Source: Odontesthes bonariensis
Lineage: Eukaryota > Chordata > Actinopteri > Atheriniformes > Atherinopsidae
Length of the DNA stretch: 64,000 nucleotides
Direction: 5' to 3'
Assembly (NCBI RefSeq): GCF_027942865.1
Contig: NC_134524.1
Span: 19,769,536 to 19,833,535, forward strand
In this document: positions 5,056 to 52,700 of the stretch, piece by piece
How the letters are laid out: the number at the start of each line of letters is the position of its first letter
How positions within the stretch are numbered: the stretch's first letter is position 1
Translations under genes and position numbers: made by a program
The notes under the pieces: model-generated
What the model was told of the DNA's origin: nothing
The model's input: only the letters and a program-made list of their open reading frames with translations
The model's database searches: none

Positions 5056-6954
5056 TCATTCAAAAGGACTGAAAGGATTGTAAGTTCTTTCAAACAACGA
5101 AAGAAGATTGTTAAAAATGACCTCGGATGTGTTTAGCACGGCCTCGACTTGTACAACTACTTCCTCGACGACCTGCACTGTTGCACCTAAAGCTTTCTCA
5201 ACTGTTAGAACCTCTGCCACTGCCACTGCCGGGACCAATATTTCCTCTCCTAATACTGGTCCTAGCTGTTCTAATTCAGTCAGCGCTACTTCGATTGACA
5301 CCCCAAATCTGCTTTTCATCAAAACAACTGACACGGCTAGAAATCCTGTGATTGCCAAACCCACAAAACCCTTTTTCCATGACTGTGCTGCACCCTCCAC
5401 CTCCTTCCTGATGATATTACTTTTGGCCTGTTTTCGGATTTCTTCCAGTGACATGTTTTTTGATGACTGCTTAATGCACTCTTCCTCATTTTGAATGTCT
5501 CTCTCCACATCTTGAATCATTGTATTGGTGTAGTATCCTCCGGAGTTTTCCTTCACTAGTCGGTCGACGGTCTTGAGCAGCTCCATCCCCTGGAACTGGT
5601 TGCTTCTGTAATCATCTGGCTGGTCATTCTTCCAGTATTTACTGTCGAAGACGTGGCACCGACCTCCGCACTTCTTCACCAAATCACTCAACCCGTCACT
5701 CTGGCCAACATACTCTTCTATTTTCATCCCTTCAGGGAGTTGGTCACCCTGAGTGAAGACCACCACGGCATGCTTTAGAGCATCATCTGAGAAATACTGA
5801 CATATTTGATTGATGACAGCCTGCTCCTGCTCTGTGTATTTCTCCACTTTGAGCACAAGCAGAAAGACGTGAGGCCCAGGAGCACACTCTATGATGCACC
5901 TCACTATCTCAGGCTTCATGTCCTCATCAGACCTTCCTGGGGCAAAGATACCAGGAGTGTCAATCAAAGTGAGGTTCCTCCCACTGACGCATCTGGTTTC
6001 AGCCTGAGAAACCGTACATTTGTTCACTTCATTGAAACGGTTCACTTTGAATGTGGTCTCCCCAAATATGGTATTAGCCAGGCTGCTCCTCCCATTTCCA
6101 GTTTTTCCCAGCAGGACAATCCTCAATGTTTCTGGCACTAAAAATGACAGAAAATGGGAGGATATTGACAGTAGATCAGTGAATTTGTGTGACATTTGTT
6201 TGGTTACCCATTCTCTGTGGATGTGTTCTGCTCAGTTGTGCCTGAATAATTTATGCTGAGCGGCAGAAAAGAGTGGGTCAAAGTTACAACAAAGACACAA
6301 AAAATGTTCTCAAACAAGCACATTTTGTAGATGTGGGAAGTCACACGTATCTGGTTTATATCAATTGACAATGGATTAATTAAAGCGGCAGTGAGAAAAT
6401 GGAATTGTGACAAATATGCATTATTATAATCTTAAAGGATCATTTTGAGAAGTTTCCTGTAATAACAAACATAACAATTGTATATAGAATAGAATAGAAC
6501 ATCTTTATTGTCCCTGATAAAACAATGTTTAAAAACAGTGTTAAACAGTGAAACGAGTTTAGCATCCTTAGGCAGTAGTTAAAAAAATTAAAGAATATTT
6601 TTTTAAATAAATAAATAACACACAGTAAATTAACATTCTATTTCATAGAATGCACCTATTGTATCAAACAAACCAGTCGATATATGAGAGTATATGTAGT
6701 TTCCTCAACATTATAAGCCAAGAGTAACAAAGGGAACCCATGACAGTGATGAAATCTTAGATGGATAAATTATAAGAAGTTTCAAATTGAAATTTTTAAC
6801 AGTATGCTTTTGATCATAGTTAAATTACAAACATTTAAAACCTTTCATGCAGCTTTCATTTTCTAAATACCCCAAAATCATAATTATTAATCATTTTTAT
6901 TCAAATAATAGTATTTGACGAAGGCTGGAAGGAATAACTTCACTTACCGTCCAT
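5056..6954 (-). CDS. GIMAP/AIG1-family GTPase with Arg in place of the P-loop Lys
   Basis: Two coding exons: 6954-6948 (ATGGACG, then a GTAAGT donor) and 6137-5056 (after a TTTTTAG acceptor), joined in phase 1. They give 362 aa starting MDVPETLRIVLLGKTG. The AIG1 GTPase domain spans about residues 8-215. G1 reads GKTGNGRSS, so the nucleotide-binding Lys is Arg19 (codon AGG at 6090-6088). G3 DTPG is intact, the G4 region reads FTQGDQ, and the GIMAP motifs ITECAPGPH-like and CGGRCHVFD are present. After a charged helical stretch comes a hydrophobic segment (FVGLAITGFLAVSVVLM) that could anchor it in a membrane, as in other GIMAPs, and then an acidic hydrophobic tail. GIMAPs are septin/Toc-like GTPases tied to lymphocyte survival. 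The 810-bp intron holds only AT-rich repeat DNA. The Arg may abolish or alter GTP binding. Exon 1 is tiny and rests on its phase and its match to the next gene. Confidence 0.85.
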
Positions 6955-9596: not shown

Positions 9597-10978
9597 TTAA
9601 ATTATATACACTGTGCAGACTTGAAGCAAGGCAATATGGAAGAGGACATCAGGCAAGGAATCATAATGTGTAAATATACAAATCAACTCTTTACTCTGAC
9701 GGACAAACTCCTCGATCGTCATTCCTTCAGCCAGCTGGTCACCGTGAGTGAAGAGCACTGTGGCATATTTCAAAGCTTCCTCTGAGAAAAATGTGTTCAG
9801 TGTCTCTATGATTGCCTTCTCCTGTTCAGTGAATTTATCCACCCTGAGCACGATAAGAAAAACATGAGGGCCAGGAGCGCATTCTGTGATGCACTTCACT
9901 ACCACAGGCTTCATTTCCTCCTCAGACCTCTTTGTGTCAAATAATCCAGGGGTGTCAACAAAGACGATGCTTTTCCCATTGACGCGTCTCGATTCAGTTT
10001 GACATTCAATTGTTCCAGATTCGGGAGTATGGTTGGTGGCAAACACATTCTCTTTGAATAAAGTGTTGGCGAGGCTGCTTTTCCCAGCTCCAGTCTTACC
10101 CAAGATCACAATCCTTCTCGAAAACTCTGTAACACAAGAATAACTGTACGGTATTTATGTTGACATGCGACACCTTCAACAGCGCGAACCCTGAGAGATG
10201 TGCTTTTACACCTCATAAGAGTGTTGAAATATGTATCATTGTATCATTTATCATTTATCAATATGTATCATTTATCGCATTTCCAATTATACTAATAATT
10301 AAGTTTGCACACAAAATAATATTTAAACCAAAAGGAAAGGAAAAAAATAAATAAATTGGTGACGGAGAAAAAATATCATGGAAAAACTTTGCTTTTCTTT
10401 TCTTTGGGGCAGTGATATTATACGCTTTGTGGTAAAAATATCAAAGTTTAAAGAAGCAACTGCATAATTTTTACTAATTTTGAGTTTAATATATACCAAA
10501 ACAGAGATGGCTGAGGTAGGTTTACGTGTAAACTGATCACAATATCATGATGTATCATGATTGATGATTTTTTTGTTACTTATTTAGCATTTACATAAAA
10601 ACTCAATTGGGTTAAAGTAGATATTCAAATTCATGTAGAGATGTTACTCCTTCCAGATAATAAAGTGATTTTTTTTTCTTGTCACTGGAAGACTGGGAAC
10701 ACTCTTTACTTTAATTTAGTATAATTTGAACAGTTGGATATTGGTAAAATGAACACGACTTCACAGTAAAGACAACATAACAATGCTAATTTCATCTGAC
10801 ACAAATGTGAAATTGTATTGTCAATAATCCTCCAGACAGACTTAAGTTATTCCTTAATCCATGCTGTTATTTGTGCATATTATCACTATCAACTCAGAAT
10901 GAATAAGAGTGACTTACCATCAGTGATGGACTCGGAACACATTTCATCACTCTCAGGTTTTGACTCGGCTGATCCCAT
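9597..10978 (-). pseudogene. 3'-truncated GIMAP/AIG1 GTPase gene
   Basis: Exon 1 (10978-10918, MGSAESKPESDEMCSESITD, GTAAGT donor) joins in phase 1 to exon 2 (10126-9597, after TGTGTTACAG), giving 196 aa. The GTPase core looks sound: G1 GKTGAGKSS, G3 DTPG, G4 region FTHGDQ. After residue ~163 (RQSKEL) the sequence leaves the family consensus, where NDLVKKCGGRCHVFD would be expected, and ends at an unrelated stop 29 codons later. About half of a normal GIMAP is therefore missing, including the C-terminal helices and any membrane segment. The likely cause is a deletion or insertion at about 9680. Only if the short product is stable could it work, for example as a partner of other GIMAPs. The N-terminal 20 residues are Ser/Glu-rich with no known motif. 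Confidence 0.75.
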
Positions 10979-18314: not shown

Positions 18315-18357
18315 CTAATTAAGCCCCTCACTCTGCACGTGTGCAGGTCATCCAAAC

Positions 18358-21300
18358 ATGGCAGAGGAGCCGCTGCATCGAGGTGTTGCGACGGACAACA
18401 TTCAGTTCTGGTGTGCGTTATGTCTGGATCTGTTAAAAGAACCCGTCACCGTCCAGTGCGGACACAGCTACTGCAGAATCTGCATTGAGACATGCTGGGA
18501 CCATGAAGAGAATAAGGGGGAGTACAGCTGCCCTCAGTGCAGGCAGATCTTCCAGTCCCGCCCTGTTCTGGGGAAGAACACCATGCTGGCAGAGGTGATG
18601 CTTTTACACTTCCAGCTGTTTGCCACAGACTCATGAGCTCAGATAAGTTACGCTGTAGCACCACATTGCGGCTTAACAGTTGAATTATTGTTACTTTTAT
18701 AAAAAAAAAAAAAAAAGTCATATCTATTTTAGTATCTGTTTTCGCAACATTAAATAAACATGCTTTAATTTATGTTCCACAAAATTAAATGGTGTGTTTT
18801 AAATTAAATTTGCTGTCCAAGTACCAGTTTTTTTTTTTTGTCCCGTTACAACTCAAACTCCTTAATATGTCGATAAAATGCTAAATGAATAGTCCTTGTA
18901 CCTCAGAAGCCTTTAACTGAACGGAGTTGTAGCTTGTCTGACAGACTTCAGTGTTCCACATGGCCAAAAATAAAAAATAATTTAATATTGTATGTTTGAG
19001 ATTGTGAGTCTTTTGAATAACAGGTTCTGCAGTGTGACTGTTGTTGAGCTCATATATGTGATATATGAAACCGTCCCACTTTGCAGGCTGAGATTCAGCA
19101 GTTTGTTTTTATTTGTTATTTTTAGGTTGTGGAGAACCTGAGCGGGCTGAGCACCCAGCAGTGCTCTCCCTGTGCCGGCCCTGCAGACGTGGCCTGTGAT
19201 TTCTGCAGCAGTTCCAGACAAAGCGCGGCCTCCAAGTCTTGCCTGACGTGCTTGGCATCGTACTGTGCCGCTCACCTGAAGCCTCACTACATATTTCCCG
19301 CGTTAAAGACGCACCAGCTGGTCTCAGTTACGATCCCAGTAAAGGAGAAGGTGTGTACGCAGCACAACAGGCTGATGGACATCTACTGTAAGACGGACAA
19401 GAGGTGTATCTGCTGCCTGTGCTCTATAGAGCACCACAGCCGCCATTCCAATGTGTCGGCTGCGGCAGAAAGAGCTGAAGAACAGGTATGATGGGAGACA
19501 CAGCAGAGCACAGTGAACATGACACAGGAACGTGTTTGTGCTGAATGTAAAAACCTGCATGCATTTTCGCAGCTTTTGAAAACCTGGTCCGAGTTTTTAG
19601 AACCAGTAATTCTCTCTGGATTAAACCGGCCACATTCAAGTTGTTGCACAAACGATTTCTTTCAGGAACTGCTGGTCATGAACCAAAAGAAAGTCCAGAA
19701 GAGACTCCAGGAGAGGGAATGCGAACTGAATGAGCTGGTTCAAGCTCTGAAGGAATTTAAGGTGTGGAATGGGACAGCAGGTTATGTATTCCAACATCAG
19801 CTACGCTGTAGCTTATGGCGTAGCTTCGGATTTAATGCCTCTGTAATCATTTTTCTGCTCGCTCCTTCAGTCCATGTGTGGACTCAGTTGAGTAACGCAG
19901 AAAATTAATGTTGCTTAACACGTAAATGAATGTTGTGTAACGTGTTGGTTTGCCCCCGTAGTCATAAAATGGGAGTTGCTGCCAGTAAGTTTTGCTTTCA
20001 GTGGTCTTTTTCTGGTTTGGAAAATGGTTGAAAATGAACCACAGTGAAAGTTAATGAGAGAAAAGTCTTGTTGTGTTTGGTGTATGTGCAAGCAGAGCTG
20101 CTGCCAGACTGCAGTGAAGTCCATTGACGACCTCATGGACGAGCTGATCTCCTCCATTCAACGAAGGCGACTTTTAGCAAAGCAGCTGATGGGATCCCAG
20201 GAGAACATCGCCGTCGCTCAGGCTGAAGAGCTGCAGCTGCAGCTGGAGGCCGAGATCGCCAAGCTGAGAAAAAGAGACGCCGACCTGGACCAGCTTTCTC
20301 AAACCACCGACCACATTCATTTCATTCAGGCAGGCCACGTTTTTACTGTCAGTTTACATGCAGAACTTGCGTAACATTTCTTTAGGACAAAGCCTAAAAG
20401 CGGGCTTTGCATCTTATGACTTCTGGCTAAATTAAGACCGCAGACTTCTCAATAAAACATACTTTTCCGTTCCTATTGTCACACGGTGAAACAGCAAAGC
20501 ATTCTGAGACTGCTGCTCTGCTCTGATCAGATCCTGACTTGTGTCAGGTTTAAATGTGTTTTTCCATTAAAATGGGAACTGCACAAGACTTGATAGCCCT
20601 GTAAGTTGTCTGCTCCATCACTCTTTCACAAAAAAAGACTGCATATATTAAGCAGACGAGTATCTTCTTCCAGTATTATTCAATAATTTTTTTTTTTTGT
20701 CTCGGACTTACTGACCCGCAGACTTTCCAGTCTCTGTCCGCCTCACGTGAATCTCCAGACTTGCCACCCGGTGCCGTTGTTCGTCCTCGCCATTCGATGG
20801 AAACGGCGACTAAGTGTGTGTGCGAACTGAAAGGTGACATAGAGGATCTCATAAAGAAGACATGGCCCAAGATCTCTGCCAGAGGTATGTGAGAGAAATT
20901 GTAGTTCATGAACGGTGCTCTCTTTCATGTTGTGTGGGATTCAGAATCTTTTTCTTTTCCCCTCTGTCGACAGTCTGTGCTGTAGGTGTTGTACTGCCAC
21001 CTAAGCCAAAGACCAGAGAAGAGTTTTTACACTGTGAGTACAAAATTAAATCTTAATAATGAACTGAACACCAGATGAGTGATATTAATGTTGCCCCGTG
21101 TTCCTGCTTTGCTTTTCTAACAGACTGTCGCACCTTAACGCTGGACACCAACACTGTTCACAGATGTCTGTCCATCTCTCAGCAAGGCCGGCGGGTGACG
21201 AGTCATATCTGGCCGCAACCTTATCCCCATCACTCTGACAGGTTTACGGATGTGGGGCAGGTGCTGTGCAGAGAGGGTCTGTCGGAGCGATGCTACTGGG

Positions 21301-21653
21301 AGGTCAGCTCAAGATGTCGTTTGTGGGAGGTGGCAGTGGCTTACAAAGACATCAGCAAAGCGTCAGACGACTCGGCGTTTGGAAAGAATAAGAAGTCGTG
21401 GAGCTTAAAGTGCGCCCCAGGTGCTTACGCTTTCCGACATAACGCAGCAACCAGAAAAGTGCGGGGCCCTGCATCCTCCAGGATTGGAGTGTACCTGGAT
21501 TATAAGGCAGGCGAGCTGTCTTTTTATAGCGTCTCTGACAAGATGACTCTGCTCCACAAAGAGCAGACCAGCTTCACTCAGCCTCTCTATCCAGGCCTCT
21601 GGCTGAGAGATGGATCAAACGTTGAGAGCGCAGAAGTGATGAAGCTATGGTGA
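18358..21653 (+). CDS. finTRIM-like TRIM E3 ubiquitin ligase (RING, B-box, coiled coil, PRY-SPRY)
   Basis: Seven exons: 18358-18594, 19126-19485, 19666-19761, 20096-20329, 20722-20884, 20974-21033, 21124-21653, giving 559 aa. Exon lengths 96, 234 and 60 bp for exons 3, 4 and 6 are the classic TRIM sizes. RING is C3HC4 (C19, C22, C34, H36, C39, C42, C58, C61). Exon 2 (residues 80-199) holds a B-box1-like [10 protein letters not shown]...CLTCLASYC and a B-box2 ([20 protein letters not shown]...H). Coiled coil is about 200-309. PRY-SPRY is 384-559, with [34 protein letters not shown] and LYPGLWL. It would ubiquitinate proteins, likely pathogen or signalling targets bound by SPRY. Intron 4 uses a GC donor (CAG|GCAGGC); the others are GT-AG. 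An intron splits RING from the B-boxes. All domains look intact. A second copy of the locus kept only a scrap of exon 5 (40198-40243). Confidence 0.92.
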
Positions 21654-23832: not shown

Positions 23833-26800
23833 ATGGATGATATTCACCAGTACCCCGTTTTCTTCGAGTGCCACAAGCCTCTCGGGGAGCAGCAGGTGAA
23901 GAAAGTGGAAGCATATTTCCGTGTTCGACGCAGATCCGGCGGAGGAGAGTGCGCTCCACTGAGGACTGTGGCTGACAACGTCTACTGTCTAACTTTCCGA
24001 TGTCAAAAAGGTACAGTAAAGATACGCTCAGTTATCTGCTCATACTTAAATCTGCTCTTTTCATTATTTTATGACGGGGGTCGTCTTATCCAAGAGGAAC
24101 CCTGTCCATCCAACTGTAGGTACATTAATCCCATTTCTTTGAAAACTCTCTTTACAAAGACTGGATGGGCCAAGTTTAAGTGCTTAATTTGCAAACGAGA
24201 CTGCACAATAAATCATAAAGCAGGTCAAAACTGGTGTGGAAGCGCTTTTAAAGAAAGTGGGAATTTCCGCGGAAAACGAAACCAAAGTCACTGACTTGTG
24301 ACTTTCCAGTTTTCATGTTCACGAACTCTTATCTGTAACATGGTAAACCTGACAGATATGAAACTAATGTAGCATGTAAATATTGATTTGATTTTTCACC
24401 TGCATTAATTCACCTTTGTGTTGATATCCCTGTTTATTTACTCAGCCATCTATCCTTTTTTATTTGATTTGTCTCTTTTCGTTTTGGACTTCTTTCGTCA
24501 TTTCTGACTCCCCGTGTTTATTCCTATGAAATGTTCCCGTTTCTATTTTCCTTCTCCTTTTATTGGCAGCAATATAATTTCCATTAATCCCTGCGTGTCG
24601 ACAGGCCTTGTATGTGCTTCCTTCCTTCCTTCCTGTAAAACCGAGGCGGAGAAATGTCAATCCTCTATTTTAGGCAATGAGTGATTAGGTAAAGTTAAAT
24701 AAATACAAAATACCGTAGCCTATTTCTATATTCTTGGAATGTTGATTTGCAATTTTAAAACACCCATGGTGTTAATCTTATTGTGCCCATATCCATTGCC
24801 TTGCGCAGTGCAATATTGTTACATGCGATAAGAGAAGAAGAAAACAAAACAAACAAACAAAAAAAACACCATTACAAAAAAGTTTGCCATTCGGGTAAAG
24901 TTCTAATGCAAGTGAGATGATCTCAGTTTTGAATGCAGACTCGCAGTGATATCCTGTTTATGAGGTAAACAACGTGCACATGAACTCAGTGCCCCCAAAG
25001 GATGGTGATAACTGTGAACACAATGTCAATGATTAGCCTCAACATTATAACCACCTGCCAATATGGAGTAGGTCCTTCTCATGCTGCCAAAAGTGCTCTG
25101 ACCAGTCAGGGTGTGGGAAAAAAAACCACTGAGGGTGCCCCATGTTACTGGAATGTTAAAGAGATAGTTTGCCTCTTTTGACATGAAGCTGTATGACATC
25201 CCATATTAGCAATATTATTTATGAACATTGACTTACCCCCCGCTGCGTCCTGTGAGCCGAGTTCCAGCCTTGGTTTGGCGTTGATGAAGGTAGTCCGGCT
25301 AGTTTGCTAGGGTCCCGAAAATAAAGCGTCTTGCTTCTCAAAACAATATGCGTTAAAAAGAGTAATACATTTGCATCACAAAATCGTTCATCCAGAAAAA
25401 GTCAGACCTCACAATCGCTTGGCGCTATTTCTCTCTTCCTTCGTATCACTACGGGCTGTGTAAACTGTGCAGACCGAAGTGCAGACCGAGCAGTCGCCTG
25501 CTTCCGAGCAGCAAACACCGTAACAGGTTTGGCTATCGGCAGGTGGCTGTACGCAGTGATACAAAGGGAGGCAAAAATAGCGCCAAGCGATGTGAGGTCT
25601 GACTTTTTCTGGAGGGACGATTTTGTGATGCAAATGTATTACTCTTTTGAACGCATATTGTTTTGAGAAGCAAGACACTTTATTTTCGGGACCCCAGCCA
25701 ACTAGCCGGACTACCTTTTGTCAAGGCAAAAACTCGGCTGGAACTCGGCTCAAAGGACGCAGCAGGGGGTAAGTCAATGTTCATAAATGATATTGCTAAT
25801 ATGGGATGTCATACAGCTTCATGTCAAAAGAGGCGAACTATCCCTTTAACAGTTGATCCTTAAAGGCCTTTGGGTTTTTGGATGACATCTCTGTGAATTG
25901 AGCTTCCTTCCACAGATGGCACCAGTCCCAATCAGATTGTTATCTGAGGTGCTTTGAAAACCTTTGATGCCTTATTTGATTCCTTCCTCCAGTTATTCCA
26001 GCTGCTGCTGCCGGGGAATGCTGTTGCCACATGTGGACTGACTCTTTTCTTGGAGGACTTTGCTTATGATCAAGATCAGCAGTGTCACTCATTTTACCTG
26101 TTAATGGTCATAATGTTGTGGCTGATCGGCTTATAAGAGCTTTGTCACAGATATCTTGGAATCAAAATATATGTTGTCTGACATGTACAGTGTCCAAGAG
26201 GAAATTAAATCAGTATTTTTCAATTGTTTCCAAAATGTGACTCCATGTGTCCACAGCAGCCATTTTAAAGAATAACTGTCGCGGCTCATATAAATGATTA
26301 GGTTCATTCTTGTCTCTGTGTGGTAGTTATGCATAGCATGACATGAGAATAAATGTATTCTTTAGGTCATGTTTAATGCTTGAAATAACAAATGTGACAC
26401 ATTCTGTTTTAGATCAGCAGGAAGTCCTAAAGAGATCCGAGCATGCTGTGGCGCTCGCAGATGGTCGCCTGGTGTTCACTGTCCGGGGCAGCTGGGAAGC
26501 TCCCACCCCCTCTAACAGCACCACCCCCACAGCTCCAGAAGGGGTCAGTGCAATTTCGTCAAGGTTTCTCTGATCTGACACATGTCAGTCACTGAGAACA
26601 GTAAACTGTTAAGATTTGAATGTGTTTTCGATGCAGGACCCTCAGTCCATTCCTGCCTCAGCTGCTTCATCAAGTGGTGAAGATTGTGAGCTACAACCTA
26701 ACGATCAGCCATCGACCTCCCCGAAGGAAAGGCCCAGTGCTGAGGAAGACCAGGAGGAAGAGCTGACCTCTGAATGCTCCTCTGCCCAGATTCACCCAGA

Positions 26801-29800
26801 TGAGGAGAGGGCTAATTCTGGAGCTGTTGGTGAAATTAGTAACGTTGGAACTGGAAAGGATATACTTGATGGCTATTACGAGTACCACAGTGAGGAGAGT
26901 CCAGATCAGGAGTTGTTCGATGCAGTTCCTGAAGCCTCTGGAGGCCGAGTCTGTGTAGAGATTGTTCAGGGGACCATCGAGACCCAACAGGTGAGAAATA
27001 CCTTGCAAAACTTAAAGTGGTGTGGATGTCTGATTTTAAATCATCAGGTGACAGGAAGCATCTCTCAAAATAGATCATGCTGTTCTCTATCTGCACATCT
27101 ACCATTTCCTTCTTATAAAGCTATGCAAACACACAGTTTCTGACTAATTTGCTGTTCAATCTGCACCACATGTCCTGTTCTTCTTTCAGGTTGATGTCAT
27201 GGTATCACCCATGGTTCTCCATGATCCTCTCTCTACCCGAATTGGTAACATTTTGAATGAAATCGTCGGTCCTCAGCTGACTTCAAGGTTTCGAGCAGAA
27301 GAAAGAGATGAATCGATGCCTGGCGACTCAGTGCCGGTGGAGGGGTTGCCTGGACTTCCATCTCATGCAGTGTTCTTCGTCAACCTCTGTCGCTGGGATA
27401 ATGATGAAAGTGGATCTTCAGTCCAGGTGAAATTACTGGGCATTTCTGTGAGAATTTCTTGTCGTGAGAGCAGTGTGCGTGGGGCGTGTTTCCATTAAGC
27501 TGTGTGCATGCCCTTGAAGAATTCTGGATGTTTACCTTTTACAGGTGCTGCGAGTGGGCATCAGCAACATCCTGACTGCCTGTGAGAACAGAGGGTTTGG
27601 ATCTGTCGCTTTTCCGGTGCTCGGGTCTGGGCTTGCCCTTCGTTTTCCTGACACTGTGGTAGCCAAGGTGTTACTGGAGGAAGTTAATAGATTTGAACAG
27701 GGCCGAACCAACAGCTCACCGCTCCTGGTCCGCATTGTCATATACCCCAATGATGACGAGGCTTATGAGGTAATTAATGCATGGTGCCACTAATTATTAG
27801 CAACTGAAGAGTTTACAAAGTCCTTTTTTTTTTGCTTATTATAGAGTTAGTTTCCAGATGATTTGGATTCTTTTTGTGCTACGGCACAGGTCGTAGCAGT
27901 GCAATATAGTTTTTCAAGTTTTCAAGTCGGTCATCTTTCATCAGGGACACCTTAAAATAACTCTGTGTAAAATTGTCTTTTAAGGCCATAATCCGACGTT
28001 TGAGTAGATAAGCATTATGGTTGGAAAGAGCTTTTTATATTAAACATCAGGTGATGTTTCTGTCTTTATCAGTGAATGTATCCGGGAACTGATGTTAAAC
28101 CCTGTACATTCTTGTCTCTCCAGGTCTTCACATCTGTTCAGAAAGCTTTGAAATGCAAAGAGTTCGTCGATGACTATCAGCAACAAGATCAAGGCAAAGG
28201 TGGGTGTAGCCCTAAGAGACCCAAGAGAGAAGATGAGTGTAAGAGAAGGTTAATGGAGAGGTTTAAAAAGGAAAAGTTTATACATTCTTTTTAAGTTTCA
28301 AAGGAGACTTGCAGCACATTAGGTGGAATGAAAACAACTGTGTGAATCACGTTCGACTTGGCAAAGATTAATATGCCGTGACTCACCAGCTGTTTCAAGT
28401 CATTCCATAAGAAGAGTTCTCTCCATTTTCTCCCATATCAAGGTTTGTATCAACTTAGGACAACTTCTACTGAATTACAACCACTGGCAACGTAGCCTGT
28501 ACCTGATTCCTTTTTCTTTCCTTCCATCTCTATAAAGATCACTTAAAATTAGCTTTACTAATGAATGGAAACCTGGCTGTGAAGGCAATAATGTAGTGGA
28601 TCAGGTCTTTTTATTAGTGCTTCTTGAATTAAACCAAAGCATACTTCATGCAATGGCTATTGTTTCCTCCAAAGTAAAAGGGATATAGCTTGCTTAAAAA
28701 AAAAAAACTCGTGTACTGATCAGAGTCATTATTCTCCTCTAGTGTCAACCACAAAGAGGCTCATCCTGCTGGGGAAAACTGGATCAGGGAAAAGTTACCT
28801 GGGCAACACCATTTTTGGAGAAAATCTTTTTGAGGTAAACCATACTCCAAACTCTGGGACCAAGAAATGCCAAGCGGAGACCAGGGCCATCGATGGAAGC
28901 AGCATCACTTTGATCGACACCCCTGGTTTTTTTGACACCGAGTCTGAGGAGGATGTGCAGCCTGAGATAATGCGTTGTATCACAGAGTGCGCTCCTGGGC
29001 CTCATGCTTTTCTTATTGTACTTAGGGTGGACAAATTCTCAAAGCACGAGCAGGAGGTCATAAATACAATACTGAAAAATTTCTCAGAAGGTGCGTTACA
29101 GTACGCCGTGATTGTCTTCACTCACGGCAACCAGCTCCCCAAAGGGATGAAAATTGAAGAGTTTGTCAGTCAGAATGAGAAATTGAATGATCTGGTGAAG
29201 AGGTGTGGTGGCCGGTGTCATGTCTTTGACAACGTAAACTGGAAAAACAAACAGCAGAACAGCTACAGGAGCAACCAGTTCCAGCTGGAGGCGTTACTTC
29301 AAACAATAGACAAGATGGTCGTGGAAAACAGCGGGCGCTACTACACCAATGGCCTTCTGCAGAGTGTGGAGAGAAAAATACAGATACGGGAAGCGCACAT
29401 AAGAGAGTCATCAGGAAACTTGACCCCAGAAGAGGTCAGAAAACAGGCCAAAACAGATGTGTCCAATGATTTTATGATCTGCCTGACAGGTGCAGCAACG
29501 GGAGCTTTGTTGGGGGCTTTCTTCGGTGTGGCAAGCATGGTTAAACATGTTCTACGCTTTGTGAGACCAGCAGAATTATGGAAGTCTGCGAAAAAGATAC
29601 CGGCTCTAGCGGGGCCAACAGCAATGGCAACAGCAGGAGGAGAGGTAGCACTGACTACTGCCGTTGTTGCTGGTGTGGCACTAACAGCCATGGCTGCAGC
29701 TGGAGCAGTAAAAGGTGGTACTGTTGGACGTGATGCAGCAAAGGGAGCAAAAAATCCAATGGAGGCAATGAAAATGGCAGCAGAAGCTGTCATGAAGGAG

Positions 29801-29827
29801 GGAACTTCGGAATTTAATAGGATTTAA
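23833..29827 (+). CDS. RRM-like + macro domain + GIMAP GTPase fusion protein, copy 1
   Basis: Seven exons: 23833-24010, 26413-26543, 26637-26990, 27190-27426, 27545-27769, 28124-28199, 28743-29827, giving 761 aa. All junctions are GT-AG and keep frame. Residues 1-~95 resemble the PARP10/14 N-terminal RRM (YFRVRRRSGGGEC, then DQQEVLKRSEHAV...GRLVFTVRGSW). Residues ~104-200 are an acidic, Ser/Pro-rich linker. Residues ~203-400 are a macro domain (RVCVEIVQGTIETQQVDVMVSP...FPVLGSGLALRFPDTVVAKVLL); the usual ADP-ribose-contacting VNAAN is VSPMV, so binding may be lost. Residues 401-~610 are an AIG1 GTPase (G1 GKTGSGKS with K417, G3 DTPG 459-462, G4 THGN 527-530, CGGRCHVFD). An Ala/Gly-rich hydrophobic C-terminus (FMICLTGAATGALLGAFFGV) may insert in membrane. 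The GTPase exon has no in-frame ATG before M477, so it needs an upstream exon. Alternative: a separate macro protein that ends by reading through exon 6. Confidence 0.8.
24011..24294 (+). other. Open frame continuing exon 1 into intron 1
   Basis: The exon 1 frame stays open for 94 more codons past the GT donor, and the same frame is open in copy 2. It encodes a short Cys-rich stretch (CPSNCRY..., CLICKRDC, NWCG). It could be an intron-retained short isoform (RRM-like part only), but may just be chance sequence preserved by the recent duplication. Confidence 0.25.
24259..24283 (+). promoter_or_regulatory. NF-kB site next to an ISRE in intron 1, copy 1
   Basis: GGGAATTTCC (24259-24268) is a perfect palindromic kB site. 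GAAAACGAAACC (24272-24283) matches the ISRE GAAANNGAAAC. Only 3 bp separate them, about 250 bp into intron 1. Such pairs serve as joint NF-kB/IRF inputs in antiviral enhancers. Both sites are unchanged in copy 2. Confidence 0.6.
25160..25845. mobile_element. TTAA-target foldback transposon in intron 1, copy 1
   Basis: TTAA at 25156-25159 and 25846-25849. Ends AGAGATAGTTTGCCTC and its complement GAGGCGAACTATCCCT. The two halves form a long inverted repeat meeting around 25490. Copy 2 keeps only the left half (from 45569 to ~45758, then it jumps to the flank), so the element predates the duplication and was partly deleted there. The ORFs in it are not genes. Confidence 0.85.
28200..28742 (+). 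other. Intron 6 of macro-GIMAP, with possible alternative end of exon 6
   Basis: Reading through the exon 6 donor adds a basic tail starting GGCSPKRPKREDECKRRLM, which looks like a nuclear localisation signal, then a stop at 28292-28294. In copy 2 an indel changes the last residues. I find no phase-1 start exon here that could serve the GIMAP exon on its own. An ATTAAA at ~28630 is the only polyA-like signal noticed. Confidence 0.35.
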
Positions 29828-30331: not shown

Positions 30332-31377
30332 TGTTGACCTCAAGAAGGATTGTTCTGTTGGGGAAAACTGGAGTTGGGAAAAGCAGCCTGGCTAATACCA
30401 TGTTGGGAGAAGATGCGTTCAAGATAAGTCATTCTCCAGATTCAGAAGGAAGTCCAACTCGAGCAAGAAGCAAGTGTGTCAGCGGAAGAAATCTCACTCT
30501 GATTGACATGCACAGTGTTTTTGGCACATGTGGGTCTGAGGACTCTCTTAAGACTGAGATAGTTCGGTGTCTCACAGAGTGCGCTCCTGGGCCTCATGCT
30601 TTTCTCATTGTGCTTAAAGTGGAGAAATTCACTGAGCAAGAGAAAGATGTCGTAAAAAAAATCTGCCAGTATTTTTCTGAAGACGCTCTGAAATATGCTG
30701 CAGTTGTCTTCACTCATGGAGACCAGCTACAGGAGGGAATGAGAATTGAGTAATTTGTCAGCTTAAACAAAGAGCTGAATGATGTGGTGAAGAAATGTGG
30801 AGGCAGGTGCCGCGTTGTCGATAACAAATACTGGAAGCTCCACAGCGAAGATCCCTACAGGAGCAATCAGTTCCAAGTGGAAGAGCTCTTCCGTACAATA
30901 GACAAGATAAGTGAGGCAAACGATAGAAAGTGTTACACCAATCATATGCTGAAAGACGTGAAAAACGAAATACAGAAGCAGGAAGAAGACATAACGCAGG
31001 CATCAGGAAATGTGTCAACTGAGGAAATCAGAAAGAGGGCGAAAACCAACGTGCTCAATGAGTTAATGGTCAAATTAGCGTGTGCAGAAACTGGCGCAGT
31101 TTTAGGAGCTTTACTTGGTGTGGCAGGAATTACATCCACTGGTAAAAATGTACAAGAAAATTCAGATGTTGCAGCGCTGGTATCAACAGACCCACAAAAG
31201 GCATCAATTGTGTCTGCTGCTTTCGGTGGGATTGTAAAAGGAGGTGTGGCGTTATATCATGCTGCTGCAGGAGCAGAAACTACAAGGGATGCGTTTCAGA
31301 AAGCCATGGATGCTGTTTGGAATGAGTCCACGTCGAGTTTAGGATTTGGGGGTGCAGAGGGGCAAAGCGATGATTAG
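30332..31377 (+). pseudogene. GIMAP/AIG1 GTPase exon with stop codon and broken G3
   Basis: A full-length GIMAP-type exon follows a TCTCCTAG acceptor and starts in phase 1 (TG TTG ACC), like the other GIMAP exons here. G1 GKTGVGKSS is intact. The G3 DTPG is replaced by DMHS, and an in-frame TAA at 30751-30753 stands where the family has E-E-F (GMRIE*FVS). Downstream the frame is open to 31377 and still family-like (DVVKKCGGRCRVVDNKYWK, YRSNQFQ). The single stop and otherwise clean frame suggest recent loss. It has no start exon of its own and sits outside the duplicated block, so copy 2 lacks it. Confidence 0.85.
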
Positions 31378-44253: not shown

Positions 44254-47200
44254 ATGGATGATATTCACCAGTACCCTGTTTTCTTCGAGTGCCACAAGCC
44301 TCTCGGGGAGCAGCAGGTGAAGAAAGTGGAAGCGTATTTCCGTGTTCGACGCAGATCCGGCGGAGGAGAGTGCGCTCCACTGAGGACTGTGGCTGACAAC
44401 GTCTACTGTCTAACTTTCCGATGTCAAAAAGGTACAGTAAAGATACGCTCAGTTATCTGCTCATACTTAAATCTGCTCTTTTCATTATTTTATGACGGGG
44501 GTCGTCTTATCCAAGAGGAACTCTGTCCATCCAACTGTAGGTACATTAGTCCCATTTCTTTGAAAACTCTCTTTACAAAGACTGGATGGGCCAAGTTTAA
44601 GTGCTTAATTTGCAAACGAGACTGCACAATAAATCATAAAGCAGGTCAAAACTGGTGTGGAAGCGCTGTTAAAGAAAGTGGGAATTTCCGCGGAAAACGA
44701 AACCAAAGTCGATATGTAACTAATGTCACATGTAATTATTGATTTGATTTTCACCTGCATTGATTCACCTTTGTGTTGATATCCCTGTTTATTTACTCAG
44801 CCATCTATCCTTTTTTATTTGATTTGATGTCTCTTTTCGTTTTCGACTTCTTTCATCATTTCTGACTCCCCGTGTTTATTCCTATGAAATGTTCCCGTTT
44901 CTATTTTCCTTCTCCTTTTATTGCCAACAATATAATTTCCATTAATCAGGGGTGGAAAGTAACGAATTACATGTACTCACGTTACTGTAATTGAGTACTT
45001 TTTGTGAGTAATTTCATCCCTGCGTGTCGACAGGCCTTGTTTACATGATGTGATGCATGCAGGAATGTGCTTCCTTATGTAAAACCGAGGCGGAGAAATG
45101 TCAACCATCTGTTTTAGGCAATGAGTGACTAGGTGAAGTTAAATAAATACAAAATACCGTAGCCTATTTCTATATTCTTGGAATGTTGATTTGCAGTTAA
45201 CACCCATGGTGTTAATCTTATTGTGCCCATTTCCATTGCCTTGCGCAGTGCAATATTGTTACATGCGATAAGAGAAGGAAGAAAAAAAAAAAAAAGTTTG
45301 CCATTCGGGTAAAGTTCTGATGCAAGTGAGATGATCTCAGTTTTGAATGCAGACTGGCAGTGATTTCCTGTTTATGAGGTAAACAACGTGAACCCAGTGC
45401 CCCTAAAGGATGGTGATAACTGTGAACACAATGTCAATGATTAGCCTCAACATTATAACCACCTGCCAAATATGGAGTAGGTCCTTCTCATGCTGCCAAA
45501 AGTGCTCTGACCAGTCAGGGTGTGGGAAAAAAAAACACTGTGGGTGCCCCATGTTACTGGAATGTTAAAGGGATAGTTCGCCTCTTTTGACATGAAGCTG
45601 TATGACATCCCATATTAGCAATTTCATTTATGAACATTTTCTTACCCCCCGCTGCGTCCTGTGAGCCGAGTTCCAGCCGAGTTTTGGCGTTGATGAAGGT
45701 AGTCCGGCTAGTTTGCTGGGGTCCTGAAAATAAAGCGTCTTGCTTCTCAAAACAATTACAGATTGTTATCTGAGGTGCTTTGAAAACCTTTGATGCCTTA
45801 TTTGATTCCTTCCTCCAGTTATTCCAGCTGCTGCTGCCGGGGAATGCTGCTGCAACATGTGGACTGACTCTTTTCTTGGAGGACTTTGCTTATGATCAAG
45901 ATCAGCAGTGTCACTCATTTTACCTCTTAATGGTCATAATGTTGTGGCTGATCGGCTTATAAGAGCTTTGTCACAGATATCTTGGAATCAAAATATATGT
46001 TGTCTGACAGTATCCAAGAGGAAATGAAATCAGTATTTTTCAATTGTTTCCAAAATATGACTCCATGTATCCACAGCAGCCATTGTAAAGAATAACTGTC
46101 GCGGCTCATATAAATGATTAGCTTCATTCTTGTCTCTGTGTGGTAGTTATGCATAGCATGACATGAGAATAAATGTATTCTTTAGGTCATGTTTAATTCT
46201 TGAAATAACAAATGTGACACATTCTGTTTTAGATCAGCAGGAAGTCCTAAAGAGATCCGAGCATGCTGTGGAGCTCGCAGATGGTCGCCTGGTGTTCACT
46301 GTCCGGGGCAGCTGGGAAGCTCCCACCCCCTCTAACAGCACCACCCCCACAGCTCCAGAAGGGGTCAGTGCAATTTCGTCAAGGTTTCTCTGATCTGACA
46401 CATGTCAGTCACTGAGAACAGTAAACTGTTAAGATTTGAATGTGTTTTTGATGCAGGACCCTCAGTCCATTCCTGCCTCAGGTGCTTCATCAAATGGTGA
46501 AGATTGTGAGCTACAACCTAACGATCAGCCATCGACCTCCCCGAAGGAAAGGCCCAAGGCTGAGGAAGACCAGGAGGAAGAGCTGACCCCTGAATGCTCC
46601 TCTGCCCACCTTCACCCAGATGAGGAGAGGGCTAATTCTGGAGCTGTTGGTGAAATTAGTAACGTTGGAACTGGAAAGGATACACTTGATGGCTATTACG
46701 AGTACCACAGTGAGGAGAGTCCAGATCAGGAGTTGTTCGATGCAGTTCCTGAAGCCTCTGGAGGCCGAGTCTGTGTAGAGATTGTTCAGGGGACCATCGA
46801 GACCCAACAGGTGAGAAATACCTTGCAAAACTTAAAGTGGTGTGGATGTCTGATTTTAAATCATCAGGTGACAGGAAGCATCTCTCAAAATAGATCATGC
46901 TGTTCTCTATCTGCACATCTACCATTTCCTTCTTATAAAGCTATGCAAACACACAGTTTCTGACTAATTTGCTGTTCAATCTGCACCACATGTCCTGTTC
47001 TTCTTTCAGGTTGATGCCGTGGTATCACCCATGGTTCTCCATGATCCTCTCTCTACCCGAATTGGTAACATTTTGAATGAAATCGTCGGTCCTCAGCTGA
47101 CTTCAAGGTTTCGAGCAGAAGAAAGAGATGAATCGATGCCTGGCGACTCAGTGCTGGTGGAGGGGTTGCCTGGACTTCCATCTCATGCAGTGTTCTTCGT

Positions 47201-49652
47201 CAACCTCTGTCGCTGGGATGATGATGAAAATGGATCTTCAGTCCAGGTGAAATTACTGGGCGTTTCTGTGAGAATTTCTTGTCGTGAGAGCAGTGTGCGT
47301 GGGGCGTGTTTCCATTAAGCTGTGTGCATGCGCTTGAAGAATTCTAGATGTTTACCTTTTACAGGTGCTGCGAGTGGGCATCAGCAACATCCTGACTGCC
47401 TGTGAGAACAGAGGGTTTGGATCTGTCGCTTTTCCGGTGCTCGGGTCTGGGCTTGCCCTTCGTTTTCCTGACACTGTGGTAGCCAAGGTGTTACTGGAGG
47501 AAGTTAATAAATTTGAACAGGGCCGAGCCAGCAGCTCACCGCTCCTGGTCCGCATTGTCATATACCCCAATGATGACGAGGCTTATGAGGTAATTAATGC
47601 ATGGTGCCACTAATTATTAGCAACTGAAGAGTTTACAAAGTCCTTTTTTTTGCTTATTATAGAGTTAGTTTCCAGATGATTTGGATTCTTTTTGTGCTAC
47701 GGCACAGGTCGTAGCAGTGCAATATAGTTTTTCAAGTTTTCAAGTCGGTCATCTTTCATCAGGGACACCTTAAAATAACTGTGTAAAATTGTCTTTAAAG
47801 GCCATAACCCGACGTTTGAGTAGATAAGCATTATGGTTGGAAAGAGCTTTTTATATTAAACATCAGGTGATGTTTCTGTCTTTATCAGATGACTGTATCC
47901 AGGAACTGATGTTAAACCCTGTACATTCTTGTCTCTCCAGGTCTTCACATCTGTTCAGAAAGCTTTGAAATGCAAAGAGTTCGTCGATGACTATCAGCAA
48001 CAAGATCAAGGCAAAGGTGGGTGTAGCCCTAAGAGACCCAAGAGAGAAGATGAGTGTAAGAGAAGGTTAATGGAGAGGTTTAAAAAGAAAAGTCAATACA
48101 TTCTTGTTAAGTTTCAAAGGAGACTTGCAGCACATTAGGTGGAATTGAAACAACTTTGTGAATCACGTTCGACTTGGCAAAGATTAATATGCTGTGACTC
48201 GCCAGCCGTTTCAAGTCATTCCTTTTGTGCTGTTGTTTTTTTTTCTCCCATATCAAGGTTTGTATCAACTTAGGACAACTTCTACTGAATTACAACCACT
48301 GGCAACGTAGCCTGTACCTGATTCGTTTTTCTTTTCTTCCATCTCTATAAAGATCACTTAAAATTAGCTTTACTAATGAATGGAAACCTGGCTCTTTGTT
48401 TTTTTTTACTAAATGTGAAGGCAATAATGTAGTGGATCAGGTCTTTTTATTAGTGCTTCTTGAATTAAACCAAAGCATACTTCATGCAATGGCTATTGTT
48501 TCCTCCAAAGTAAAAGGGAAATAGCTTGCTTAAAAAAAAAAAAACTCATGTACTGATCAGAGTCATTATTCTCCTCTAGTGTCAACCACAAAGAGGCTCA
48601 TCCTGCTGGGGAAAACTGGATCAGGGAAAAGTTACCTGGGCAACACCATTTTTGGAGAAGATCTTTTCGAGGTAAACCATACTCCCAACTCTGGGACCAA
48701 GAAATGCCAAGCGGAGACCAGGGCCATCGATGGAAGCAGCATCACTTTGATTGACACCCCTGGTTTTTTTGACACCGAGTCTGAGGAGGATGTGCAGCCT
48801 GAGATAATGCGTTGTATCACAGAGTGTGCTCCTGGGCCTCATGCTTTTCTTATTGTACTTAGGGTGGACAAATTCTCAAAGCATGAGCAGGAGGTCATAA
48901 ATACAATACTGAAAAATTTCTCAGAAGGTGCGTTACAGTACGCCGTGATTGTCTTCACTCACGGCAACCAGCTCCCCAAAGGGATGAAAATTGAAGAGTT
49001 TGTCAGTCAGAATGAGAAATTGAATGATCTGGTGAAGAAGTGTGGCGGCCGGTGTCATGTCTTTGACAGCGAAAACTGGAAAAACAAACAGCAGAACAAC
49101 TACAGGAGCAACCAGTTCCAGCTGGAGGCGTTACTTCAAACAATAGACAAGATGGTCGTGGAAAACAGCGGGCGCTACTACACCAATGACGTTCTGCAGA
49201 GTGTGGAGAGAAAAATACAGATACGGGAAGCGCACATAAGAGAGTCATCAGGAAACTTGACCCCAGAAGAGGTCAGAAAACAGGCCAAAACAGATGTGTT
49301 CAATGATTTTATGATCTGCCTGACAGGTGCAGCAACGGGAGCTTTGTTGGGGGCTTTCTTCGGTGTGGCAAGCAGGGTTAAAGATGTTCTAAGCTTTGTG
49401 AGACCAGCAGAATTATGGAAGTCTGCGAAAAAGATACCGGCTCTAGCGGGGGCGCCAACAGCAATGGCGGCAGCAGGAGGAGAGGTAGCACTGACTACTG
49501 CCGTTGTTGCTGGTGTGGCACTAACAGCCATGGCTGTAGTTGGAGGAGTAAAAGGTGGTACTGTTGGACGTGATGCAGCAAAGGGAGCAAAAAATCCAAT
49601 GGAGGCAATGAAAATGGCAGCAGAAGCTGTCATGAAGGAGGGAACTTCGTAA
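44254..49652 (+). CDS. RRM-like + macro domain + GIMAP GTPase fusion protein, copy 2
   Basis: Same seven exons as copy 1: 44254-44431, 46233-46363, 46457-46810, 47010-47246, 47365-47589, 47941-48016, 48580-49652, giving 757 aa. Exons 1-6 have identical lengths to copy 1; exon 7 ends earlier because GAA is TAA at 49650 (KEGTS*). One extra codon (GAP for GP) lies in the C-terminal Ala-rich part. Every splice site and domain is kept: RRM-like RRRSGGGEC, macro domain (VDAVVSP here), G1 GKTGSGKS, G3 DTPG and the same Asn in G4 THGN. In exons 2-5 I count 17 base differences from copy 1 and all change the protein. The upstream Mutator-like insertion of copy 1 is absent. AATAAA at 50244-50249 may end the transcript. 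The intact frame in both copies argues the fused arrangement is in use. Confidence 0.8.
44680..44704 (+). promoter_or_regulatory. NF-kB site next to an ISRE in intron 1, copy 2
   Basis: GGGAATTTCC (44680-44689) and GAAAACGAAACC (44693-44704), with the same spacing as copy 1. The pair is unchanged although nearby intron sequence differs: the bases just after it (CAAAGTCGATATG versus CAAAGTCACTGAC) have diverged. Confidence 0.6.
44947..45015. mobile_element. Short repeat insert (GGTGGAAAGTAACG type)
   Basis: About 69 bp starting AGGGGTGGAAAGTAACG and including AATTGAGTACTTTTTGTGAG are present in copy 2 and absent from copy 1 (ATTAATCCCTGCG). It belongs to a common fish DNA-repeat family. Confidence 0.65.
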
Positions 49653-52009: not shown

Positions 52010-52700
52010 AGGCAAGGCATCTTTATTTATATAGCGCATTTCATACCACAGGCAACTCAATGTGCTTTACATAAAGACAAGGCATTTAAAAGAACAGCAT
52101 AAAGCAGCAATTTAAAGAAAAAAAAATAGAATAAAAATTAAAAACACAGTTAAAAGCAATCAAAGAAGAGGGGAAAAAGAAAGATATAAACTCAACCATA
52201 AGCACACCGAAAGAGAAATGATTTTAACCTGGATTTAAAAGTGCTTACAGTTGGGTCTGATTTCAGTTCTGCTGGTAGTTTGTTCCAGTTGTGTGCAGCA
52301 TAACAGCTAAAAGCTGCTTCACCGGGTCTAGTTTGAACTCTGGGCTCCACTATCTGACCTGAGTCAGCAGATCTCAGAGCTCTGCTGGGTTTATACTCTG
52401 CTAGCATGTCATTCATGTATTCTGGACCTAAACCATTCTGTGATTTGTAGACGAGTAGCAGAACTTTAAAATCTATTCTGTATCTGACTGGGAGCCAATG
52501 TAAAGACTTGAGAACTGGGGTGATGTGATGTGATCTCTTTGTTCTGGTTAAAACTCGGGCTGCAGCGTTCTGAATGAGCTGCAGCTGTTTGAGACTCTTT
52601 TGGGGAGTCCAGTCAGAAGACCGTTACAGTAGTCAAGTCTGCTGGAGATGAAAGCATGAATCAGCTTCTCCTGATCTGTTTGGTACTTACACTATTAATC
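52010..52700 (-). mobile_element. L2-like LINE 3' end, minus strand
   Basis: Frame 52416-52192 (minus) encodes the same C-terminal LINE tail as at 3547 (EYKPSRALRSADSGQ, GEAAFSCYAAHNWNKLP). It is followed on the minus strand by the GCGCTATATAAATAAA-type 3' end (~52020-52040). Upstream sequence to ~52700 belongs to the same repeat. Confidence 0.75.

Follow-up and report, generated by a model that had tools for sequence, protein, structure and literature searches.

The 64,000-nucleotide stretch of DNA analysed here (the window) is C24:19769536-19833535 of the 945-Mb genome of Odontesthes bonariensis, and our genome searches cover this genome. It contains two copies of a gene model in which an RRM and a macro domain of PARP14 type are followed by a GIMAP (AIG1) GTPase. 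Copy 1 has seven exons with GT/AG at the inner borders, and their join of 2,286 nt encodes 761 amino acids followed by a stop codon (Table 1). The original prediction of an open 761-residue frame, with phase 1 both at the end of exon 6 and at the start of exon 7, is borne out with legal splice borders. The same is true of copy 2, in which exons 1-6 are identical in length to those of copy 1 and the exon 6-7 junction is the same. It was also correctly predicted that the GTPase exon has no ATG until residue 477, beyond the P-loop.

On the joined protein, Pfam RRM_PARP14_1 matches residues 19-83 (E 2.3e-11), Macro matches residues 240-339 (E 1.3e-5; a modest 25.5 bits against a cut-off of 22), and AIG1 matches residues 405-614 (E 1.3e-54; 185.2 bits against a cut-off of 27). 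All three lie above the curated Pfam cut-offs on the joined protein only; taken exon by exon, the RRM and macro domain of the window are absent from the 7 RRM and 21 Macro places of genome-wide Pfam-family searches. The two strongest hydrophobic 19-residue segments of the protein (residues 645-663 and 702-720) are both in the C-terminal part of the GIMAP portion. PARP (PF00644, the ART catalytic domain) is not among the 10 Pfam families listed up to E 10 for the joined protein, and a comparison with Rfam gave no match.

Table 1. Positions of the features discussed; copy 1 occupies window positions 23833-29827, and positions without the prefix C24 are those of the window.
Feature	Position	Strand	Content
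Copy 1, exon 1	23833..24010	+	Start codon and first part of the PARP14-type RRM (Pfam RRM_PARP14_1 on the joined protein)
Copy 1, exon 2	26413..26543	+	End of the RRM
Copy 1, exon 3	26637..26990	+	Acidic linker followed by the first macro-domain strand; both ends of the long KH/macro1 exon in gene D are matched
Copy 1, exon 4	27190..27426	+	Macro domain, corresponding in position to macrodomain 2 of gene D
Copy 1, exon 5	27545..27769	+	Second half of the macro domain
Copy 1, exon 6	28124..28199	+	End of the macro domain; strong phase-1 donor AAAG/GTGGGT
Rival read-through of exon 6	28200..28294	+	In-frame stop at 28292-28294; 31-residue basic tail
Copy 1, exon 7	28743..29827	+	GTPase of the GIMAP/AIG1 family; two hydrophobic segments in the C-terminal part; acceptor in phase 1; first ATG beyond the P-loop
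Further GIMAP exon downstream of copy 1	30332..31377	+	Same phase-1 acceptor; in-frame TAA at 30751-30753
Copy 2, whole gene	44254..49652	+	Exons 44254-44431, 46233-46363, 46457-46810, 47010-47246, 47365-47589, 47941-48016 and 48580-49652; 757 amino acids
Copy A	C24:19754051-19760458	minus	Match to the first 400 residues
Copy B	C24:20934579-20935861	minus	Match to the first 400 residues
Copy C, diverged	C24:19693940-19696517	plus	61-63% identical in the macro exons
Gene D	C24:20044264 onwards	plus	About 50% identical; about 0.23 Mb away

Linked copies and their parentage

When the genome was searched with the first 400 residues, 33 places were listed; on C24 they group into copies 1 and 2, copies A to C and gene D, with weaker matches at C24:6.76-6.79 Mb and on C7. 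Of the 114 matches listed for the exon 7 protein, only those in copies 1, 2 and B are at least 91% identical, and the remaining listed matches are at most 60% identical. In each of these three copies, exon 7 sits downstream of a macro exon 6, across an intron of 543, 563 and 679 bases in copies 1, 2 and B, respectively. Exon 6 is present at four places (copies 1, 2, A and B), and its donor sequence is kept in all four. Copy B (C24:20932817-20936533) begins differently, with a GIMAP exon that runs in frame, within one exon, into the end of macro exon 3; macro exons 4-6 and exon 7 follow, giving a GIMAP-macro-GIMAP arrangement. Exons 1-2 were not found in copy B, and upstream of it lies a relative of the ordinary GIMAP start exon that has lost the ATG.

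Gaps between copies were counted in exons and introns. For copies 1 and 2, only 2 gaps, each 3 bases long, fall in the 2,283 aligned exon bases; the introns have 22 gaps in 2,993 bases, of which 13 are frame-shifting. The intron rate predicts 9.9 frame-shifting gaps for the exons, and there are none (Poisson P 5e-5). For copies 1 and B, compared over exons 4-7 only, there are none in 1,620 bases against 7.0 expected (P 9e-4). Intron 1 is gap-prone and holds a palindromic element; introns 2-6 alone, with 6 frame-shifting gaps in 1,292 bases, give a rate similar to that obtained with intron 1 included. Together, the three linked copies, the phase of exon 6 in gene D (see below) and the exclusively frame-preserving gaps support the fusion part of the original prediction.

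On longer branches, the ratio of non-synonymous to synonymous substitution rates (dN/dS) is 0.38 (copies 1 and C) and 0.50 (copy 1 and gene D) for macro exons 4-5, and 0.39 and 0.31, respectively, for exon 1. For exon 7 against four other GIMAP exons it is 0.23-0.29, with the GIMAP exon at 30332 entered only as far as its stop; rows labelled A7, read in the wrong frame and cut at 60 nt, were left out of the analysis. These branches take in the parent genes, and values below 1 may reflect those. Among the recent copies, exon 1 has 2 synonymous and 0 non-synonymous changes, and across exons 1-6 of the window copies 17 of the 19 changes are non-synonymous, which is compatible with neutrality (P 0.13). 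We rejected dN/dS between recent paralogues as proof of function, the values being near 1 or above.

Where did the macro half come from? The exons of gene D form, in our reading of the sequence, one PARP14-like gene in the order RRM (27.5 bits), a long 839-residue KH/macro1 exon containing macrodomain 1 (123.6 bits), a macro domain of the window type, macrodomain 3, WWE and ART; the KH matches are below the Pfam cut-offs (E 0.026 and 0.1). By position, the window macro domain is the second of three in gene D. In gene D, exon 6 (67 nt) likewise has a phase-1 end, and its join to the first macrodomain 3 exon is open. Hence, the window gene looks like a partial PARP14 duplicate in which the long exon has shrunk to a linker and the GIMAP exon occupies the place of macrodomain 3. 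It shares with PARP14 the N-terminal RRM_PARP14_1 and, by position, macrodomain 2, and has exon 6 in the same phase as gene D; in contrast to PARP14, it has a linker for the KH/macro1 exon, and a GIMAP GTPase instead of macrodomain 3, WWE and ART.

Among solved structures, the best whole chain for the first 400 residues is the two-macrodomain chain PARP14 3vfq (49.5 bits over two stretches), which is matched better in its second macrodomain (30.0 bits) than in its first. The best single-stretch match is a PARP9 macrodomain (44.4 bits), with PARP14 5o2d at 34.5 bits. To our knowledge, neither PARP9 nor PARP15 contains a GTPase. Both are believed to be partial PARP14 duplicates (PMC13224862), as the window gene appears to be, but they retain the ART domain, which is inactive in PARP9.

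A separate observation concerns copy C. After its macro exon 5, at C24:19.697 Mb, there is a terminal exon with weak similarity to GIMAP tails and no G domain; it contains a long Gly/Ala-rich stretch and a hydrophobic end. The first 70 residues of this tail match three of four GIMAPs with E 3e-4 to 8e-4 and the fourth with E 0.3. For the first 60 residues, 1, 1, 0 and 100 of 1000 shuffles attained the score against the four GIMAPs. The whole tail matches one GIMAP with E 9e-21, a value obtained over low-complexity sequence without filters, and has no Pfam match.

Predicted functions of the two halves

In human PARP14, macrodomains 2 and 3 are reported to bind ADP-ribosylated proteins and macrodomain 1 to be a hydrolase (PMC10470015; PMC13224862), and the hydrolase residues are described as poorly conserved in macrodomain 2 across metazoans (PMC10221186). 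The original prediction was of a protein that reads ADP-ribosylation or carries a decayed version of the fold, against the background that macro domains bind or remove ADP-ribose marks. Reading is plausible, since the position of the window domain corresponds to macrodomain 2 of gene D and its human counterpart is reported to be a reader. Removal is disfavoured because the catalytic residues of macrodomain 2 are poorly conserved. Decay need not be invoked. The first loop is VSPM in the window copies, with the Asn of the VN motif of human PARP14 macrodomain 2 and PARP9 replaced, and it is VCPM in gene D and ASPM in copy C. This loop is therefore not a product of decay after the fusion, since gene D and copy C share it in kind. 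Loop 2 is GSGLALRFP in the window, as compared with GTG-NLGFP in human PARP14 macrodomain 2, and the GxG is conserved.

An alternative is a real chimera whose macro domain has lost ADP-ribose binding and acts as a protein-protein contact. The replacement of the first-motif Asn in the window copies, copy C and gene D, together with the altered residues of loop 2, would fit such a loss. However, GxG and the domain as a whole are conserved, dN/dS is below 1 against copy C and gene D, and human macrodomain 2 is reported to bind ADP-ribosylated proteins (PMC10470015). We regard a non-binding macro domain as somewhat unlikely.

Exon 7 encodes a full AIG1 domain and a hydrophobic C-terminal region, as in GIMAP5, GIMAP2 and GIMAP8. 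As with its neighbours in the GIMAP cluster, a single large exon, entered in phase 1, encodes the GTPase. GKTGSGKS and DTPG, which we take to be the P-loop (G1) and G3, are present in copies 1, 2 and B. At what is presumably the G4 region (FTHGDQL), all three exon-7 copies (window 29114 and 48951, and C24:20.933 Mb) have FTHGNQL, an Asp-to-Asn change, whereas all five other pattern matches in the window, copy A and copy B have GDQL. Ordinary GIMAPs of the cluster would start a few residues before the P-loop, whereas the window gene has 400 PARP14-type residues there. GIMAP8, as described in PMC8201404, differs in having three GTPase domains and no macro domain. Snail AIG proteins are similar in that AIG1 is fused to other N-terminal domains (death, kinase and ARM-type fold), but the added domains named in PMC7053062 do not include a macro domain.

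GIMAPs are reported to bind GTP and to dimerise, and scaffold formation has been proposed (PMC8201404). We propose that part of a PARP14-like gene (RRM, linker, macrodomain 2 and exon 6) was duplicated and came to lie directly upstream of a GIMAP GTPase exon. Since the exon 6 donor and the GIMAP acceptor are both in phase 1, the GIMAP exon would take the place of macrodomain 3, and one mRNA would encode the 761-residue RRM-macro-GIMAP protein. The macro domain, as a putative reader, would bind mono-ADP-ribosylated targets and, perhaps with the RRM, recruit nucleic acids or ADP-ribosylated proteins to a membrane scaffold under GTP control. By analogy with the GIMAP family, assembly would occur through the GIMAP domain; regulated by GTP and carrying hydrophobic C-terminal segments, this domain could oligomerise and gather the targets on a membrane-bound or oligomeric scaffold as part of an innate response. 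That the locus encodes a real spliced chimeric gene, with exons 6 and 7 joined as predicted, is likely. For the wider proposal of a real, multicopy RRM-macro-GIMAP chimera that arose by exon shuffling and acts in this manner, we lean towards acceptance, with less assurance.

Splice sites and possible start exons at the proposed exon 6-7 join

Splice sites were scored with a weight matrix. The exon 6 donor scores 10.1 bits and is among the best 0.3% of the window's GT sites. Reading through this donor would give the basic tail listed in Table 1, for which copies 1, A and B have the same frame. A one-base gap puts the tail of copy 2 into another frame, with a different end of 40 instead of 31 residues.

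The tail raises the possibility of alternative last exons, in which one transcript unit would yield both a short RRM-macro protein, by read-through, and the full RRM-macro-GIMAP protein. In copies 1 and B the frame is open to either end, copy A retains exon 6 and the tail though its nearest GIMAP exon is 4.36 kb away, and copy B has an AATAAA in intron 6. On the other hand, the tail of copy 2 is frame-shifted, and between the tail stop and exon 7 neither window copy has an AATAAA, only variant hexamers. Overall, we judge alternative ends to be unlikely.

A second explanation for the tail is that there are two neighbouring genes, one for a short RRM-macro protein ending at 28292-28294 and the other a separate GIMAP gene with its own short start exon. 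The way in which other GIMAP exons of the cluster begin would fit this. We inspected 12 of the 17 cluster GIMAP exons listed, and all 12 begin right after the acceptor with no usable ATG; for two of them an in-frame Met lies before the acceptor, i.e. in the intron. The missing ATG in exon 7, which had been offered as an argument for the fusion, is thus hardly informative, and we rejected it as evidence. Two ordinary GIMAP exons, for which the upstream DNA was read, are preceded by a two-codon start exon (ATGGCG G/GTGAGT). Similar sequence occurs at five places in the genome, all within C24:19.64-19.74 Mb (two of these read, three assigned by coordinates), and the genome search gave no match to this start exon in the window. 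Only five of the 17 listed exons have recognisable upstream start-exon sequence, so its absence before exon 7 is supportive rather than decisive.

Candidates for other start exons do occur upstream, at about the rate of chance: 7 in phase 1 in 24011-28742, as compared with about 4.6 expected (125 in 128 kb of single strands). The original prediction that the 543-bp intron 6 of copy 1 contains no other start exon holds for donors of at least 6 bits, for which chance would give only about 0.5; there is one phase-1 candidate with a donor of 3.9 bits. The openness of the tail in copies 1, A and B would also fit two genes, as would the different frame in which copy 2 reads to a stop. Against two genes, exon 7 was never seen without exon 6 (three of three places), copy 2 has a frame shift in the tail but in none of the exons of the spliced model, and gene D, where exon 6 is internal, has by eye no tail-like sequence after it. 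We regard two separate genes as quite unlikely. We consider it improbable that the locus is a relic, in which partial PARP14 duplicates were inserted into the GIMAP cluster and, transcribed or not, give no functional chimeric product: recent duplications, the probably mobile element in intron 1, broken GIMAP exons, dN/dS near 1 among recent copies, and the missing exons 1-2 and ATG-less start-exon relative of copy B would all fit, but the exons have no frame-shifting gaps between copies 1 and 2 or 1 and B, the splice sites are kept, and dN/dS is below 1 on the longer branches, though the parent genes may account for this last point.

Several observations count against the proposed chimera. Among the splice sites of copy 1, the acceptor of exon 7 is only moderate, ranking in the top 7% of AG sites, and three sites are weak: the donor of exon 1 (4.7 bits) and the acceptors of exons 2 (2.0 bits) and 3 (3.8 bits). 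With start-exon sequence recognisable for so few cluster GIMAP exons, exon 7 may possess a diverged start exon of its own. In copy A, the next GIMAP exon downstream of exon 6 has the same phase but is only 49% identical. Synonymous divergence (dS) in exon 7 is about 0.03-0.04 among copies 1, 2 and B; these are recent duplicates, so the three linkages of exon 6 to exon 7 are not independent events. The gap test shows that both halves keep their frames, and not that they share one mRNA. Between copies 1 and 2, the macro exons have 8 non-synonymous and 0 synonymous changes; dN/dS in exon 7 is 0.62 (interval 0.24-2.09) for copies 1 and 2, and 1.00 for copies 1 and B. Diversifying evolution has been reported for macro-PARPs (PMC4038475), and values near 1 among recent copies would fit this and relaxed constraint equally. 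Moreover, all comparisons are within one genome of one species. As a separate check, the DNA before seven start codons (those of copies 1 and 2, copies A and C, gene D and two GIMAP start exons) was searched over at most 1 kb, in one case over only 762 bases, for interferon-response cores (TTTCNNTTTC on either strand, and TTCNNNGAA); there are none, so these motifs give no regulatory support.

What would be the significance of an RRM-macro-GIMAP chimera? Tentatively, it could stand for a class of immune proteins that is new, namely GIMAPs that read ADP-ribose: an RRM and a reader macrodomain derived from PARP14 would direct a GTP-driven scaffold to targets that are ADP-ribosylated. In that case, the locus would be a workshop of exon shuffling, with three macro-GIMAP copies, the GIMAP-macro-GIMAP arrangement at C24:20.93 Mb and the macro gene with a GIMAP-like tail at C24:19.69 Mb. 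No macro-GIMAP protein is reported in the open-licence literature searched. Both halves belong to known families, and automatic annotation may already contain the combination without its having been remarked on. For the reader macrodomains of PARP14, the physiological targets are described as not established (PMC13224862). If the chimera is real, a natural fusion of a PARP14 reader with a GIMAP would be a “Rosetta stone” hint that GIMAP scaffolds and the reading of ADP-ribose belong to one pathway, an idea that would become testable in fish, and the locus would illustrate how exons of the same phase let two immune families recombine.

Neighbouring features

The further GIMAP exon downstream of copy 1, which carries an in-frame stop codon, may represent an alternative last exon that is broken. 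Pieces of a TRIM-like gene (RING, B-box and PRY-SPRY) occur at 18319-21650, some 2 kb upstream of copy 1. Two GIMAP open frames lie on the minus strand, at 5056-6231 and 9597-10154, the second of which matches only the first 146 of 212 AIG1 positions. The palindromic element in intron 1 of copy 1 (25154-25851) is about 700 bp long and probably mobile; it also occurs at two further loci (L040 and L043), and only part of it is found in copy 2. Another open frame on the minus strand, at 52192-52623, resembles the reverse-transcriptase end of a long interspersed nuclear element (LINE), for which it is a candidate.

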